DNA from: Parvibaculum sp.
Lineage (GTDB): Bacteria > Pseudomonadota > Alphaproteobacteria > Parvibaculales > Parvibaculaceae
Direction: 5' to 3'
Length of the DNA: 64,000 nucleotides
NCBI RefSeq assembly: GCF_030651915.1
Contig: NZ_JAUSBV010000002.1
Coordinates: 62,001-126,000, forward strand
Shown: one piece after another, positions 12,976 to 39,385 of the stretch
Numbering within the stretch: the first letter of the stretch is position 1
Layout: every line of letters begins with the position of its first letter
Position numbers and translations under genes: made by a program
Notes under the pieces: model-generated
What the model was told of the DNA's origin: nothing
Seen by the model: the letters and a program-made list of their open reading frames with translations, nothing else
The model's database searches: none

Positions 12976-14667
12976 ATGTTGAAGAACCCCGCCGTCAAAT
13001 ACCGCGCCTTCCAGCCGATCGACCTGCCCGACCGGCAATGGCCGTCGAAAACCATCACCAAGCCGCCGATCTGGATGAGCACCGATCTCCGGGACGGCAA
13101 TCAGGCGCTCTTCGAACCGATGAACGCGGAACGCAAGCTCCGTATGTTCGAATTGCTGGTCAAGATCGGCTTCAAGGAAATCGAGGCGGGCTTCCCGTCG
13201 GCGTCGGACACCGATTTCGGTTTCATCCGCAAGCTGATCGAAGAGGGGCGCGTGCCCGACGATGTGCATATCGAGGTGCTGACACAGGCCCGTCCCGAGC
13301 TGATCGCGCGCACGATGGAAAGTCTGCGCGGCGCCAGGAACGCCATCGTCCATGTCTATAATGCCACCGCGCCGAATTTCCGCGAGGTGGTGTTCAACCA
13401 GGGCAAACAGGGCGTCAAGGCGATTGCCACCGAAAGCGCGCATCAGATCAAGGAGATTGCGGCGACGCAGCCTTCGACCAACTGGACCTTCCAGTACAGT
13501 CCGGAAGTCTTTTCGGGCACCGAGCTCGACTTCGCCAAGGAAGTCGTCGACGCGGTGACCAAGGTCTGGGAGGCGGGGCCCGAGCGCAAGGTCGTCATCA
13601 ATCTGCCGGCAACCGTCGAAATGGCGACGCCCAACATCTATGCCGACCAGATCGAATGGATGCATCGCAATCTCGAACGGCGCGACGGCATCGTCCTGAG
13701 CCTGCATCCGCATAACGACCGCGGTACGGCGGTCGCCGCCGCCGAGCTCGGCGTTATGGCGGGTGCCGACCGCGTCGAGGGCTGCCTGTTCGGCAATGGC
13801 GAGCGCACCGGCAATGTCGATCTCGTCACGCTGGCGCTCAATCTCTACAGCCAGGGCATTCATCCGGGTCTGGATTTTTCGCAGATCAACGAGATCGCGC
13901 GCACGTCGGAGTACTGCACGCAGCTGCCGATCCATCCGCGCCACCCCTATGTCGGCGATCTGGTGTTCACGGCTTTTTCAGGCTCGCATCAGGACGCGAT
14001 CAAGAAAGGTTTCGGCGCGCGCAAGGAAGGCGACATCTGGGAAGTGCCCTATCTGCCGGTCGATCCGAAGGATCTCGGGCGCAGCTACGAGTCGATCATT
14101 CGCGTCAACAGCCAGTCGGGCAAGGGCGGCGTCTCCTATCTTCTCGAAGCCGAATACGATCTGAAGCTGCCGCGCCGGCTGCAGGTCGAGTTCAGTTCGG
14201 CCGTCCAGAAGGTGACCGACGACACCGGCAAGGAAGTGACGGCGGCCGATATCTGGCGGATTTTCGAGGCCGAGTATCTGACAATTGTCGAGCCGCTCGA
14301 ATATCGCAGCCATTCGCTCTTCGACGAAGGCGGCAAGCAGGGCGTGAAGCTCCGTGTACGCCGTTTCGGCCAGGATGAGGAGCTTGTCGGCTTCGGCAAT
14401 GGCCCGATCGATGCGCTGGTCGATGCGCTGAAGCTCGGCGTCCAGCTCCGCCATTTCGAGGAACATTCGATCGGCACCGGCTCGGACGCCAAGGCGGTCG
14501 CCTTCATCGAGGTCGCCGATCCGGCCGGCGCCGGCGATATTTTCGGCGTCGGCATCGACCCCAACATCATCACCGCCTCTTTCCGGGCGCTGATCGGCGG
14601 CGCGAACCGCGCCGCCAGGCGGGTGCCGGAGGGGGAGCGGCGGCGCTTTTGCGGTCTCGCCGACTGA
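12976..14667 (+). CDS. leuA: 2-isopropylmalate synthase
   Basis: First committed enzyme of leucine synthesis: condenses acetyl-CoA with 2-oxoisovalerate. 563 residues, the longer LeuA2 form. The TIM-barrel DRE signature [14 protein letters not shown] is near 35-48 and the metal-binding HPHNDRGTA near 241-249, followed by GERTGNVDL. The C-terminal ~130 residues form the regulatory domain that senses leucine. The gene is monocistronic, with a 5' region holding a candidate leader peptide and a second hairpin near 12917-12953. Confidence 0.95.
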
Positions 14668-14777
14668 CGCGGCGGCCCGTTTCGGCCTCAAGCGGGGATA
14701 AGGGCGGGGACAAGTGGTCTGTCAACTTGTCTCCGCTACGCTGCCGGGACGGTCACCCGACTGCCGCCTGCCCTTTT

Positions 14778-14838
14778 GTGACAGTTTTATGACAGTTTAG
14801 TGACAGAGGGGGGGTCCGCTGCCGTTTCTTGCTGTCAA
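14778..14838 (+). promoter_or_regulatory. Phased GTGACAG repeat module upstream of phaZ
   Basis: GTGACAG at 14778-14784, ATGACAG at 14789-14795 and GTGACAG at 14800-14806 recur at exactly 11 bp. They are followed by a run of seven G, TCCGCTG, and an inverted CTGTCAA at 14832-14838. The same order occurs at 38521-38601. The module ends 94 bp before the phaZ start. The rest of 14668-14932 shows no gene. Confidence 0.65.
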
Positions 14839-14932: not shown

Positions 14933-16183
14933 GTGCTTTATCACATCTACGAAATGAACCATGCGGCCGTCGCGCCGCTGCGTGCCGCCGCCGAAGTCGG
15001 CCTCTGGGCGCTGCGTCATCCGCTCAATCCCTTCGCCGAAACAGTTGCCGGCAAGACGCTTGCCGCGGCACTCGACGTTTTTGAAACGACGACGCGTCGC
15101 TATGGCAAACCGAAATTCAACCTTCACGAAACGGAGATCGGCGGCAAAGCGGTGCCGGTCGTCGAGAAGATCGTCTGGGAACGTCCCTTCTGCGATCTGG
15201 TGCATTTCGAGCGCGAAGCTTCGGCGATGACAGATGTCGCGCCGCAGCCGAAGCTGCTGATCGTCGCGCCGTTGTCCGGCCACTACGCGACACTGTTGCG
15301 CGGCACGGTCGAAGCGATGCTGCCCCATTGCGAGGTCTATATCACCGACTGGATTGACGCCCGAAAAGTGCCTCTGGCAGAAGGATCTTTCGATCTCGAT
15401 GATTATATCGACTATGTGATCGACATGTGCCACCTGCTCGGGCCCGATGTGCATCTGCTGGCCGTCTGCCAGCCGTCGGTGCCGGTTTTCGCCGCCGTCG
15501 CCGCCATGCACGACAATGACGATCCTTGCGTGCCGCTCAGCATGACGTTGATGGGCGGGCCGATCGACACGCGCGAAAGTCCGACCGAGGTCAATCGTCT
15601 CGCGACCGAGCGCGGCACCGAATGGTACGAACGCAATGTCGTGATGACGGTGCCCTGGCCGCATCCCGGCGTCATGCGCCGCGTCTATCCGGGCTTCGTG
15701 CAGCTGTCGGGTTTCATGGCCATGAATCTCGACCGCCACATGGATGCCCACTGGGATTATTTCGACCACATGGTCGAGGGCGACGGCGACTCGGCCGAAA
15801 AGCACCGCGAGTTTTATGACGAATATCTGTCGGTCATGGACATGACGAAGGAGTTCTACCTTCAGACCGTCGACGAGGTTTTCGTCAAGCATTCGCTGCC
15901 CAAGGGCGAGCTGACCCATCGCGGTCGCAAGGTTCGGCCGGCGGCGATCACCCGCACAGCCTTGATGACCGTCGAAGGTGAGAAGGACGACATTTCCGGC
16001 GTCGGCCAGACCAAGGCGGCGCACAAGCTTTGCACCGGCCTTCCCGCGTCGATGAAGACCCATTGGGAACAGCCGGGCGTCGGCCATTACGGCGTCTTCA
16101 ACGGCTCGCGCTGGAAAAACGAAATCGCACCGCGGGTGCGCGACTTCATTGCCGCCCACACGAAGCACCCGGCCAAGGGCTAA
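14933..16183 (+). CDS. phaZ: Intracellular polyhydroxyalkanoate depolymerase
   Basis: Mobilises stored PHB/PHA granules inside the cell. 416 residues, alpha/beta-hydrolase fold of the intracellular depolymerase family, in which the nucleophile is Cys: C179 in [10 protein letters not shown]. The catalytic His is probably in the C-terminal [11 protein letters not shown]. The GTG at 14933, preceded by GAGGTA, gives the typical N-terminus [10 protein letters not shown]. No signal peptide, consistent with cytosolic action. No PHA synthase or phasin gene is in the window. The promoter region carries the phased GTGACAG module. Confidence 0.9.
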
Positions 16184-26976: not shown

Positions 26977-28485
26977 TTAGTTGGGGCCGTGACCGCCTTC
27001 AAGCATCCGGCGGAGCAGATCGACGTCCTCCTCGATGCCCGAATCGAGATGGCAAAGCTCGTCGATCTTGCGCACCGCGTGAATGACCGTCGTGTGGTCG
27101 CGACCGCCAAATTTGCGCCCGATCTCGGGCAGGGAGCGCGAGGTCAGCTGCTTGGCCAGATACATCGCCACCTGACGCGGACGGGCAACCGCCCGGGCGC
27201 GGCGGGCCGAGAGCATGTCGGCCAGACGGACGTTGTAATACTCGGCAACGCGGCGCTGGATTTCCTCGATCGTGATCTTGCGGTCGTTGGAGCGCAGCAG
27301 ATCGCGCAGCACTTCCTGCGACATATCGAGCGTGATCGGGCGGCCGACAAAGGAGGCGTAGGCGACAACGCGCTTCAGCGCGCCTTCAAGCTCGCGCACG
27401 TTAGAAACGATGCGGTGTGCCAGAAATTCCAGAACGCCGGCAGGAATGGTCACGGGGCCGTTCTTCTGCATCATTTCCTCGGCCTTGGCCTGCAGGATTC
27501 CGAGACGCAACTCATAATCCGTCGGGTGGATATCGGCGGCCAACCCCCAGCCGAGACGTGAGCGGATACGCTCCTCGATGCCTTCGAGATCGGAGGGCGA
27601 GCGATCGGCCGAAATGATGACCTGCCGGTTGTGATCGATCAACGCGTTGAAGGTGTGGAAGAATTCCTCCTGCGTCGAATCCTTGCCGGAAATGAACTGC
27701 ACGTCGTCAATCATCAGCACGTCGACCGAGCGGAACTGCTGCTTGAAGGCCATCGTGTCCTTGAAGCGCAGCGCCCGCACGAACTGGTACATGAATTTTT
27801 CGGCCGAGAGATAAAGCACCTTGCGCTCAGGCTGGCGGGTGCGGATTTCCCAAGCGATGGCGTGCATCAGATGCGTCTTGCCGAGGCCGACCCCGCCATA
27901 GAGAAAGAGCGGATTGAAGCTGACATCCGTCGCTTCGGCGACACGGCGCGCCGCAGCATGCGCAAGCTCGTTCGACTTGCCTACAACAAATGCGTCGAAA
28001 GTAAAACGCGGGTCGAGCGGTGCGCCGACACCGGCATCCTCAAGGCCCGAAGGAACTGCGCTCGCAGCAGGCTGGCTTTCGGCCTGGGCCGGCGCTGAGA
28101 CCGGACGCGCACTACGCGCCGCCTCTTCGCTGCCGTCCGATTTCGGGTCGCCCGCAGCCACCAGAATATCGACACGCGTAAAACCCTCATCCTCGTCCGC
28201 CCAGAGCTGCGACAGACGATCCGCATAATGCGAGGCAATCCAGTTGCGGATGAAACGTGTCGGAACGGAGAGCATCACACGGCCATCACCGACGCCGATC
28301 AGTTCGACCTGCTTGAACCAGCTGCTGAAGGTGGCCTCGCCCAGTTCGGCATGGAGTCGGGCGCGCACGCGACGCCATTGATCATTGAGGCTCATACCCG
28401 CGACCCGCCGAACCGAAGCCCGTTCCTCGCCGGCCACCGCGACCGGATGGTGGCGAACGCCTTTCTCCGCGGGAGATGCACCCAT
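26977..28485 (-). CDS. dnaA: Chromosomal replication initiator DnaA
   Basis: 502-residue AAA+ initiator. Domain I starts at about residue 31 ([14 protein letters not shown]). Walker A GGVGLGKT is at 197-204, Walker B is in [12 protein letters not shown], and the DnaA-box recognition helix [15 protein letters not shown] is near the C-terminus. The ATG at 28485 follows GAGGAAG; longer in-frame starts exist but have poor ribosome binding sites. The first 30 residues are a basic, non-conserved extension. It heads the dnaA-dnaN-recF-clpP-gyrB set. Confidence 0.95.
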
Positions 28486-37011: not shown

Positions 37012-37974
37012 ATGAGCAACAGCAGCAAGAAGCCCGGACGCGGGCGCGTCTATGACAGCATCATCGAAACCATCGGCGATACGCCGCTGGTGCGTCTCAA
37101 CCGGATGGCGAAGGAAGCCGGCGTCGTCGCCGACATTCTGCTGAAGCTCGAATTCTTCAATCCGCTGTCAAGCGTCAAGGACCGCATCGGCGTCTCGATG
37201 ATCGAAGCGCTGGAGCGGCAGGGCAAGATCGCCGAGAACACGGTCATCATCGAGCCGACATCGGGGAACACGGGCATCGCGCTTGCCTTCGTTTGTGCCG
37301 CCAAAGGCTACAAGCTCATTCTCTGCATGCCGGAGAGCATGTCGATCGAACGGCGCAAGATGCTGGCGCTGCTGGGCGCGCAGCTTGAGCTGACGCCGCG
37401 CGAGAAAGGCATGAAGGGCGCGATTGCGCGCGCCGAAGAACTGCTGGCGCAGTATCCGAATTCGGTGATGCCGCAGCAATTCGACAATCCGGCCAATCCG
37501 GAAATTCACCGCACCACAACGGCCGAGGAAATCTGGAACGACACCGACGGCAAGGTCGATGTCGTGATTTCGGGTATCGGCACGGCGGGCACTTTCACCG
37601 GCGTCGGCTCGGTGCTGAAGGCACGCAAGCCGGGCATGAAGATGATCGCGGTCGAACCGGAGGACAGCCCCGTGCTATCGGGCGGACAGCCGGGACCGCA
37701 CATGATTCAAGGGATCGGCGCCGGTTTCGCGCCGGGCAATCTCGACAAGTCGCTGATCGACGAGGTCATTACCATCGGCAACGAAACCGCTTTCGAGCAT
37801 GCGCGCAAGGTGGCGCGGATGGAAGGTATAGCCTGCGGCATCTCGTCGGGTGCGGCAATTGCGGTGGCGCTCGAAGTCGGCGCGCGGCCGGAGATGAAGG
37901 GCAAGACGATCGTCGTGATCATCCCGTCCTTTGCCGAACGCTATTTGTCGACGGCGCTCTTCGACGGTCTCTGA
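37012..37974 (+). CDS. cysK: Cysteine synthase A (O-acetylserine sulfhydrylase)
   Basis: PLP enzyme making cysteine from O-acetylserine and sulfide, 320 residues. The PLP lysine is in [11 protein letters not shown], the substrate loop is [11 protein letters not shown], and the phosphate loop is [16 protein letters not shown] stands six bases before the ATG. It is probably cotranscribed with the Rrf2 gene. The 3' end overlaps the convergent hxlR by 34 bp. Confidence 0.95.
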
Positions 37975-38441
37975 GGAACAACAAAGCCCGCCGGCGCGCC
38001 GGGACCGGGCTCGGCCGTCATCGCGCGCGCGTCGAGCGGTTCGCCGCATTCCGAACAGGTCGGCACGGCATGCGCGACATGACCGCAGGCCTTGTGACGG
38101 CGCAGCAATGGCGGGCCTTTCTTGCCCGACATGTATTCGTCGCCCCAGTCGAGAAGTGCCAGCAGCGCCGGATAGAGCGCCAGACCTTTTTCGGTCAGTC
38201 GATATTCTTCGCGGCGCGGGCGCTCCTGATAGGGAATTTTTTCAAGGACGCCGGCCTCGGTCAGTTTTTTCAGGCGATCGGCCAGCACGTGGCGGGCGAT
38301 GCCGAGACGCTGCTCGAATTCCTCGAAACGCCGTATGCGGAGGAAGCATTCACGCAACACCAGCAGCGTCCAGCGATCGCCGACAACCGACAGGGTGCGG
38401 GCAAGCGAGCAGTGTTCGCGGTCGAGTTCTTCCCAGCGCAT
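37941..38441 (-). CDS. HxlR family transcriptional regulator
   Basis: A 166-residue MarR-fold regulator of the HxlR family: [37 protein letters not shown] and the wing [14 protein letters not shown]-terminal extension carries ACGH and CSECG, which could bind zinc or sense thiol stress. It has AAGGAGC before the ATG and a TATACT box at 38466-38461. The divergent SDR gene and the repeat array between them make it the prime candidate to control the SDR-isomerase-thioesterase genes. Confidence 0.88.
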
Positions 38442-38466: not shown

Positions 38467-38520
38467 GCTTGACAAGTTCCCTTTCGGAACCCATTCTGAC
38501 ATTACCGTTCTGAAACGGAA

Positions 38521-38601
38521 CTGACAATTGTGACAGCGAATTTGACAGCGGAACCCCCCCTCTGTCACGAAACTGTCACAAAACTGTCACAAAACTGTCA
38601 C
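38521..38601. promoter_or_regulatory. Phased CTGTCAC repeat array between hxlR and the SDR gene
   Basis: CTGTCAC starts at 38562, 38573, 38584 and 38595, exactly 11 bp apart. To the left lie seven C, then inverted copies TTGACAG (38542-38548) and GTGACAG (38530-38536). Read toward hxlR, the order is GTGACAG x4, GAGGGGGGG, TTCCGCTG, CTGTCA. This matches the phaZ module at 14778-14838, and the 89-bp distance to the hxlR start is close to the 94 bp at phaZ. Confidence 0.7.
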
Positions 38602-38656
38602 AAATGATTTTGCCCGGCCCCAAGGGGGATCGGCGATCACCCCGGAGGAGATGATT

Positions 38657-39385
38657 ATGGGAAGCCAGAAAGTCGCATTGATCATCGGCGCAGGTGACGC
38701 GACCGGCGGGGCGGTGGCGCGACGCTTCGCCAAGGGGGGATATGTCGCCTGCGTGACGCGGCGCTCGGAAGAAAAACTTATCCCCCTCATCCAGCAGATC
38801 GAAGCCGAGGGGGGACGCGCGCGCGGCTTCGGATCGGACGCGCGGAAGGAAGAGGACGTCGTCGAACTTTTCGCGACCATCGAGCGCGAGGTGGGGCCGA
38901 TCGAGGTGATGGTCTTCAATATCGGCGCCAATGTGAATTTTCCGATCCGCGAGATGACCGAGCGCGTCTATCGCAAGGTCTGGGAGATGGCGGCGCTGGC
39001 CGGCTTTCTGACCGGCCGCGAGGCGGCGCGGGTGATGGTGCCGCGCGGGCAGGGCACGATCATTTTTACCGGCGCGACCGCAAGCTTGCGCGGCGGGCCC
39101 GGCTTCAGTGCGTTTGCTGGCGCCAAATTCGCGCTGCGGGCGCTGGCGCAGAGCATGGCGCGCGAGCTCGGACCGCAGGGCATCCATGTCGCCCATCCGA
39201 TCATCGACGGCGCCATCGACACGGCCTTCATCCGCGACAATTTTCCGGAGCGCTACAAGCTGAAGGCCGAGGACGGGATCCTCAATCCCGACCATATCGC
39301 CGATGCCTATTGGCACATTCATGCCCAACCGCGCAGCGCCTGGACGCATGAGCTCGACCTCAGGCCGTGGATGGAAACCTTCTGA
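38657..39385 (+). CDS. SDR family protein lacking the catalytic Tyr
   Basis: A 242-residue short-chain dehydrogenase/reductase fold. The nucleotide loop is modified (IIGAGDATGGAVARRFA) and NIGANVNFP replaces the usual NNAG. Ser143 (ATASLRG) is present, but the YxxxK motif reads F153-AGA-K157. Without Tyr, ordinary hydride-transfer chemistry is doubtful; it may act as an atypical reductase or isomerase. The ATG at 38657 lies six bases after GGAGGAG, better placed than the ATG at 38651. First gene of the cluster diverging from hxlR. Confidence 0.8.
   Translation: MGSQKVALIIGAGDATGGAVARRFAKGGYVACVTRRSEEKLIPLIQQIEAEGGRARGFGSDARKEEDVVELFATIEREVGPIEVMVFNIGANVNFPIREMTERVYRKVWEMAALAGFLTGREAARVMVPRGQGTIIFTGATASLRGGPGFSAFAGAKFALRALAQSMARELGPQGIHVAHPIIDGAIDTAFIRDNFPERYKLKAEDGILNPDHIADAYWHIHAQPRSAWTHELDLRPWMETF

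Follow-up and report, generated by a model that had tools for sequence, protein, structure and literature searches.

A dispersed family of 11-bp direct-repeat arrays at conserved places in Parvibaculum genomes, with a possible chromosomal role

Two copies of a composite sequence element were located in the window, the 64,000-nucleotide stretch of Parvibaculum DNA that was analysed (Table 1). One copy lay between an isopropylmalate/citramalate-synthase-type gene and phaZ, and the other lay between an hxlR-family regulator gene and a short-chain dehydrogenase (SDR) gene. The dnaA gene (27001–28377) was situated between the two elements. The motifs listed in the initial annotation were re-read in the sequence and were all recovered. 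On the hxlR/SDR side, CTGTCAC was present on the plus strand at 38562, 38573, 38584, and 38595, in exact steps of 11 bp, and inverted TGACAG copies were seen at 38531 and 38543. The order was the same on the phaZ side, where TGACAG at 14779, 14790, and 14801 was followed by seven G (14808–14814), TCCGCTG (14815–14821), and CTGTCA (14832–14837). The window contained three matches to the triple array, counting two that overlapped within the four-unit array, where shuffled windows gave an expectation of 0.01. Hence, as had been claimed, the arrays are not a product of chance. The 11-bp period suggests units on one face of the helix and cooperative binding, which is plausible.

Table 1. Positions of the two elements in the window, the neighbouring genes, and the mutY gene of the same genome.
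Feature	Position	Strand	Remarks
Isopropylmalate/citramalate-synthase-type gene	12976..14667	+	Left of the phaZ-side element; Pfam HMGL-like, IPMS_D2, LeuA_dimer
phaZ-side M2 motifs TTATCCCC and TTGTCCCC	14694..14713	-	Downstream of the array; sequence given for the minus strand
phaZ-side M1 array, three units	14778..14806	-	Read on the minus strand
phaZ-side C7 run	14808..14814	-	G7 on the plus strand
phaZ-side upstream motif, TGACAGCAAG..GGCAGCGGA	14815..14837	-	Read on the minus strand
phaZ, PHB depolymerase	14933..16183	+	Pfam PHB_depo_C
hxlR-family regulator gene	37941..38441	-	Pfam HxlR
GTTCCCTTTCGGAAC and GTTCTGAAACGGAAC	38476..38521	.	Outside the element, between hxlR and the SDR gene
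Two inverted TGACAGCG copies	38530..38552	+	Upstream of the C run
C7 run	38554..38560	+	Just before the array
M1 array, four 11-bp units CTGTCAC-N4	38562..38604	+	Most elements have three units
Short-chain dehydrogenase gene	38651..39385	+	Pfam adh_short
mutY of the genome containing the window	L110:2737-3873		Pfam HhH-GPD and NUDIX_4

The core of the element was an array (M1) of 11-bp direct repeats, with three units in general and four at hxlR/SDR. The consensus in the genome containing the window (G000) was CCCCCCT-CTGTCACAAAA-CTGTCATAAAA-CTGTCACAAA. A run of at least five C stood directly before 70 of the 75 G000 arrays, a set that includes the Pho box of pstS, itself one of the five without such a run. 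The corresponding counts in other genomes were 4/54 (G001), 0/19 (G024), and 1/17 (G017). Inverted GACAGCG copies were frequent before the array, with a peak at −50 to −1 (32 matches in 68 elements). A second motif, M2 (consensus ACTTATCCCCG), was found in copies downstream of the array. When M2 was searched in four species as TT[AG]TCCCC on both strands, its density reached 5.4–5.9 per kb in the roughly 180 bp next to arrays, compared with 0.016–0.047 per kb at distances above 500 bp in the same loci. At least one M2 accompanied 61/75 elements in G000, 44/54 in G001, 17/19 in G024, and 14/17 in G017; the SDR-side element of the window had none adjacent. Moreover, clusters of at least two M2 occurred twice in a survey of 436 kb (200 kb of G024, 140 kb of G017, the window, and two 16-kb stretches of G001). 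A full-score array stood beside both clusters, one of which was the phaZ-side element. M2 read TTATCCCCG in G000, G001, and G024 and leaned to TTGTCCCCG in G017. A near-palindromic third motif, CCGTGTACGGA, was noted beside some G000 elements (6 matches within 300 bp of 68 elements), with no copy in the window. Double arrays were also seen; the distance between the main and the second array was 125 bp in L067 and 78 bp in L251.

A genome-wide scan for the triple at 11-bp steps (CTGTCA-N5-CTGTCA-N5-CTGTCA, overlapping matches counted apart) gave 73 exact matches in the 3.50-Mb genome G000. The module described from two loci was therefore not confined to them. In total, G000 had about 74 elements with a mean gap of 45 kb. 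Exact triples were also numerous in G013 (65), G026 (62), G001 (60), G022 (52), and G011 (20) and were few in G014 (5), G010 (2), and G005 (1). The other 31 of the 40 family genomes scanned had none, G024 and G017 included, and several species of the genus gave no arrays by either search pattern. In a class-wide sample of 385 genomes, two of which were of this genus (G000 and G011), genomes outside the genus had at most two TGTCA triples each. The reversed-pattern control for the exact triple gave 1 match in G000, 26 in G013, 25 in G022, 12 in G001, 4 in G014, 3 in G011, and 1 each in G005 and G026, and the control for the two-unit pattern in G000 gave 155. This control is not independent, because the arrays fit the reversed pattern when A precedes each unit. 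No described element of this kind in Parvibaculum was found in the literature searched, which was covered in part.

The positions of the arrays relative to genes were evaluated with gene calls from an in-house codon-score script, which is not a standard caller. By these calls, 64 of 71 G000 arrays were intergenic; 7/71 lay inside genes when judged by overlap and 4/75 by a stricter rule. One array within a called 1614-bp gene was kept in both species (L072 and L230, around 3001), and by eye we take this frame to resemble a molybdenum-cofactor cytidylyltransferase. Convergent gaps held 28/70 G000 arrays compared with 10/134 of the other gaps of at least 100 bp in the same loci (p 5e-8), and divergent gaps held 9/70 compared with 48/134 (p 5e-4). 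A similar distribution was obtained for G001 (convergent, 16/48 against 8/93; divergent, 8/48 against 34/93). A regulator acting at promoters would call for the reverse of this convergent enrichment and divergent depletion. The initial annotation had held that many copies without relation to gene starts would speak against a regulon, and such copies were what was found. A role as terminator or 3′-end stabiliser between convergent genes, formed by inverted M2 pairs and the array, would account for the 28 arrays in convergent gaps, and TTATCCCC and GGGGATAA are predicted to pair. However, divergent gene pairs flanked nine of the arrays, four others were located within called genes, and the even spacing and the polarity towards parB that are described below are not expected of terminators, which makes this role quite improbable. 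No Rfam match at the gathering score was obtained in the 20 of 76 G000 loci that were scanned.

The presence of the module at its two original loci was explored in relatives. Sixteen hxlR/SDR loci were read; they came from those of the 27 genus genomes in which the SDR match was nearly full-length. An array was present in eight species (G000, G026, G022, G013, G001, G011, G014, and G009) and absent from eight (G024, G017, G025, G023, G021, G002, G019, and G015). An [AG]TTC-N6-[AG]GAAC site pair (GTTCCCTTTCGGAAC and GTTCTGAAACGGAAC in the window) and CTTGACA were found in all 16 species and are probably the HxlR operators and promoter. Since the array was absent from eight loci that keep the operator-like pair, HxlR is not the binder of the array at hxlR/SDR; the gene pair needs no array, and single copies are dispensable. 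Close homologues of phaZ, at 87–99% identity, were mostly from MAGs labelled Parvibaculum. Among 14 records viewed upstream of phaZ, full triple arrays were present in L167, L168, and L174, and looser arrays were seen by eye in L169–L172, L180, and L183. There was none in L173 and L181, nor in L175–L177, which belong to other groups. A high-scoring array was also present somewhere in a 16-kb stretch of G001 (L380) chosen to seek the phaZ place. Regulation of hxlR/SDR and phaZ by HxlR or a PHA-responsive factor through the module agrees with the copies that adjoin both loci, but it meets about 72 further copies elsewhere, the convergent placement, and the eight array-free hxlR/SDR loci that retain their own operator-like pair. 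It is scarcely credible on these grounds and was rejected. The initial annotation had left a regulon and a dispersed element as alternatives; the dispersed element (about 74 copies, one every 45 kb or so) stood, and the HxlR or PHA-factor regulon found no support.

The arrays occupied the same places in different species. For 49 of the 54 G001 arrays, G000 had a counterpart at the corresponding place, and 48 of these had the same orientation. Nevertheless, orthologous G000–G001 arrays differed at 5.53 of 32 bp and were thus only a little more alike than non-orthologues between the species, which differed at 5.87 (p 0.0015 when compared with shuffled pairing). Differences among arrays within a genome were 2.72 of 32 bp in G000 and 4.51 in G001. 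The G001 arrays read CTGTCATCGA(A/T)CTGTCAAAAA(A/T)CTGTCAC. Because the search for G000 and G001 arrays relied on the CTGTCA units alone, it could not bias the spacers or the C run. The arrays of the sister clade (G024 and G017) had another spelling and were found with a pattern derived from the mutY copies, so that their consensus is partly built in. Of these 36 arrays, 26 lay at G000 places, with orientation retained in 25, and 24 lay at G001 places, with orientation retained in 23; 29 matched a place in at least one of the two genomes. Each lineage thus has its own array dialect, in which the spelling changes in concert at fixed places. The M2 motif TTATCCCC was nearly constant across lineages while the array spelling shifted.

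The spacing of the elements was more even than random. In G000, the coefficient of variation (CV) of the gaps was 0.547 against 0.934 at random, and 0/65 gaps were shorter than 10 kb against 12.9 expected; this analysis disregarded arrays with two mismatches as well as the pstS box, and double arrays (78–125 bp apart) were counted once. In G001, where exact arrays only were used for spacing and polarity, the CV was 0.583 against 0.975, and 1/54 gaps was shorter than 10 kb against 7.4 expected. Gaps were measured within contigs. The rule depends on the definition of an array, as two sites were excluded: a looser array with two mismatches (G000:C2:53387) at 4.8 kb from an exact one, and the Pho box of pstS at 5.1 kb from a different array. 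The even spacing could have been fixed at insertion, through transposition immunity, and need not reflect present-day selection. Furthermore, the arrays showed a polarity relative to parB. In G001, parB was located at 2,000,075, between arrays at 1,936,717 (+) and 2,094,006 (-), and the prevailing orientation flipped there. With the terminus assumed opposite parB, 39/54 G001 arrays pointed towards parB (p 0.0015), as did 23/29 within 0.9 Mb. In G000, 43/60 placeable arrays (about 72%) were oriented to parB. This count leaves out contigs C3, C5, and C9 (14 arrays), whose arm was not placeable, and the remaining contigs were oriented through their orthologues. The G000 and G001 counts are not independent. 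A permutation test on the best two change points gave p 0.0026. The polarity is a bias and not a rule, and it is weaker far from parB. Since the array strand is rich in C, strand composition could account for part of it. One G000 element was situated about 0.5 kb from parB (G000:C7:224432-224459; L087 and L352); in G001, the surroundings of parB (L353 and L379) yielded no array of high score.

One copy of the element was located inside the mutY reading frame. Of the 24 genus members read, 12 had it in frame in the linker that joins the EVPGTPWD and EWxLVPG motifs, and the other 12 did not have it; this linker comprised 29–62 residues with the element and 17–20 without it. The spelling of the mutY array tracked the lineage: a C run together with AAAA spacers was seen in G000 and G026, a TCGA spacer in G001 and G013, and CGTCA units in G017. 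In-frame insertion within a conserved protein gene is familiar from the Rickettsia palindromic elements (RPE). The mutY copy resembles this arrangement, whereas the present elements are mostly intergenic, are array-based, and have been respelled in concert across the genome.

The longer mutY linker and the array present in eight and absent in eight of the 16 hxlR/SDR loci would also suit a long-established family of mobile or selfish repeats (of MITE, REP, or RPE type) that spread with transposition immunity and then stayed put. Transposition immunity and a replication-linked orientation bias would explain the even spacing, including the deficit of gaps shorter than 10 kb, and the polarity. 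The many intergenic copies at gene ends and the inverted M2 pairs likewise resemble REP/BIME and CGTC-tagged REP sequences. However, the core is a direct repeat and is not palindromic, M2 alone occurs in both orientations, and the copies hold evenly spaced, orthologous places. A Y1/RAYT transposase gene (PF01797) was detected in none of the array-bearing genomes and in 1 of the 27 genus genomes, G019, which was arrayless by either pattern. Mobilisation by a RAYT as the current mechanism was rejected because carriers have no RAYT gene. An origin from phages or plasmids was rejected as well: one tested element (L100) had no plasmid or phage match, and a scan of viral_contigs gave 42 stretches with 58 matches when overlaps were counted, none of which had M2 beside the array and one of which had a nearby C run. 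Since the copies are orthologous in place, insertion elsewhere does not explain the respelling of a whole lineage, and an origin as mobile repeats is considered unlikely.

The array unit was further compared with the binding site of PhoB. The Pho box consists of 11-bp units with CTGTCA(T/C)-N4 (accessible part of PMC4415409), and the arrays have the same CTGTCA-type direct repeats and four looser bases at 11 bp. A four-unit box with CTGTCAT-type units was present at the pstS promoter of both G000 and G001, and PhoB could thus bind the G000 arrays. In G000 this box was CTGTCACAAAACTGTCATGCAACTGTCGTAAAGCTTTCG; its first unit was the commonest first array unit, and its second began with CTGTCAT, as in many arrays. 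The pstS boxes leaned to the spelling of the arrays of their own lineage in G000 (CACAAAA), G001 (CATCAAA), and G017 (CATCGAACCGTCG). The pstS boxes (L119 and L282, around 3000) were located directly after a gene that by eye was phoR-like and encoded a histidine kinase. The arrays may accordingly be read as non-promoter Pho boxes at which PhoB is stored, titrated, or used architecturally under phosphate starvation. However, the arrays as a set do not occupy promoters as Pho boxes do; they favour convergent gaps over divergent ones and extend into coding sequence, as in mutY. They also differ in having three units, a preceding C run and a following M2, roughly 74 copies that mostly lie outside promoters, and a lineage spelling, and no C7 stood before the pstS boxes. 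The G024 box, GTGTCACGTAACCGTCG, had no close match to the array spelling of its genome. In addition, a TGTCA unit was absent from 13/17 G017 arrays, which mostly read CGTCA, whereas at least one was kept in 17/19 G024 arrays, although the PhoB recognition-helix stretch VYVEARTVDVHVGRLR of these two genomes was identical. The search pattern used for both genomes left the T/C before GTCA free. A PhoB role of this kind is therefore taken to be rather unlikely. Pho-box-like sites outside promoters are known as inert intragenic PhoB sites in E. coli, which are described as non-conserved in the accessible part of PMC10294691; the Parvibaculum array places, unlike these, are conserved across species.

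Dispersed site sets of other chromosomal systems were also considered. Nucleoid-occlusion sites number around 70 per chromosome for Noc (NBS) and 24–52 for SlmA (SBS) in the accessible part of PMC4726725. The present 74 elements, with a mean gap of 45 kb, are similar in having tens of sites across the chromosome. They differ in being polar and in consisting of non-palindromic direct repeats with a second motif, where ParB- or TetR-type sites are palindromes. A DnaA-box cluster was rejected: clusters of the datA/DARS type carry TTATCCACA boxes, and TTATCCACA was found within about 200 bp of 0/75 elements, the M2 reading being TTATCCCCG.

Taken as a whole, the elements very likely form a dispersed, place-conserved family under selection as binding sites. 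On the favoured reading, they would be a chromosome-wide, probably architectural site set for a putative direct-repeat-binding protein. This protein would land cooperatively on M1, whose direct repeats lie one helical turn apart; candidates are an OmpR/PhoB-type winged-helix protein and other tandem binders. M2 may be used by a second protein or as a hairpin. Because the sites are spaced and polar and are not placed at promoters, a role for the chromosome was inferred, in which they would act in anchoring, looping, segregation, or division timing and not on neighbouring genes. That the role is chromosomal and not gene-regulatory, with the elements as candidate architectural sites, has close to an even chance of being correct, leaning slightly to the negative. 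The lineage dialects would follow from co-evolution of the sites with a shifting specificity of the M1 binder. Tentatively, and with the balance against it, the whole may be a lineage-restricted chromosome-organising system of even, origin-pointing two-motif sites that keep their genomic places from species to species, in which a fast-evolving DNA-binding protein would drive the rewriting of the arrays throughout the genome of each lineage.

For chromosomal site sets read by architectural proteins, the protein has usually been discovered before the sites. Here, the sequence by itself reveals the site set, with carriers set against relatives without pattern matches, and the natural dialects could serve to trace the binding protein through co-variation. 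Should this protein prove to be PhoB, a well-known regulator of phosphate genes would possess conserved sites away from promoters; otherwise, an unrecognised chromosome-organising protein may await discovery.
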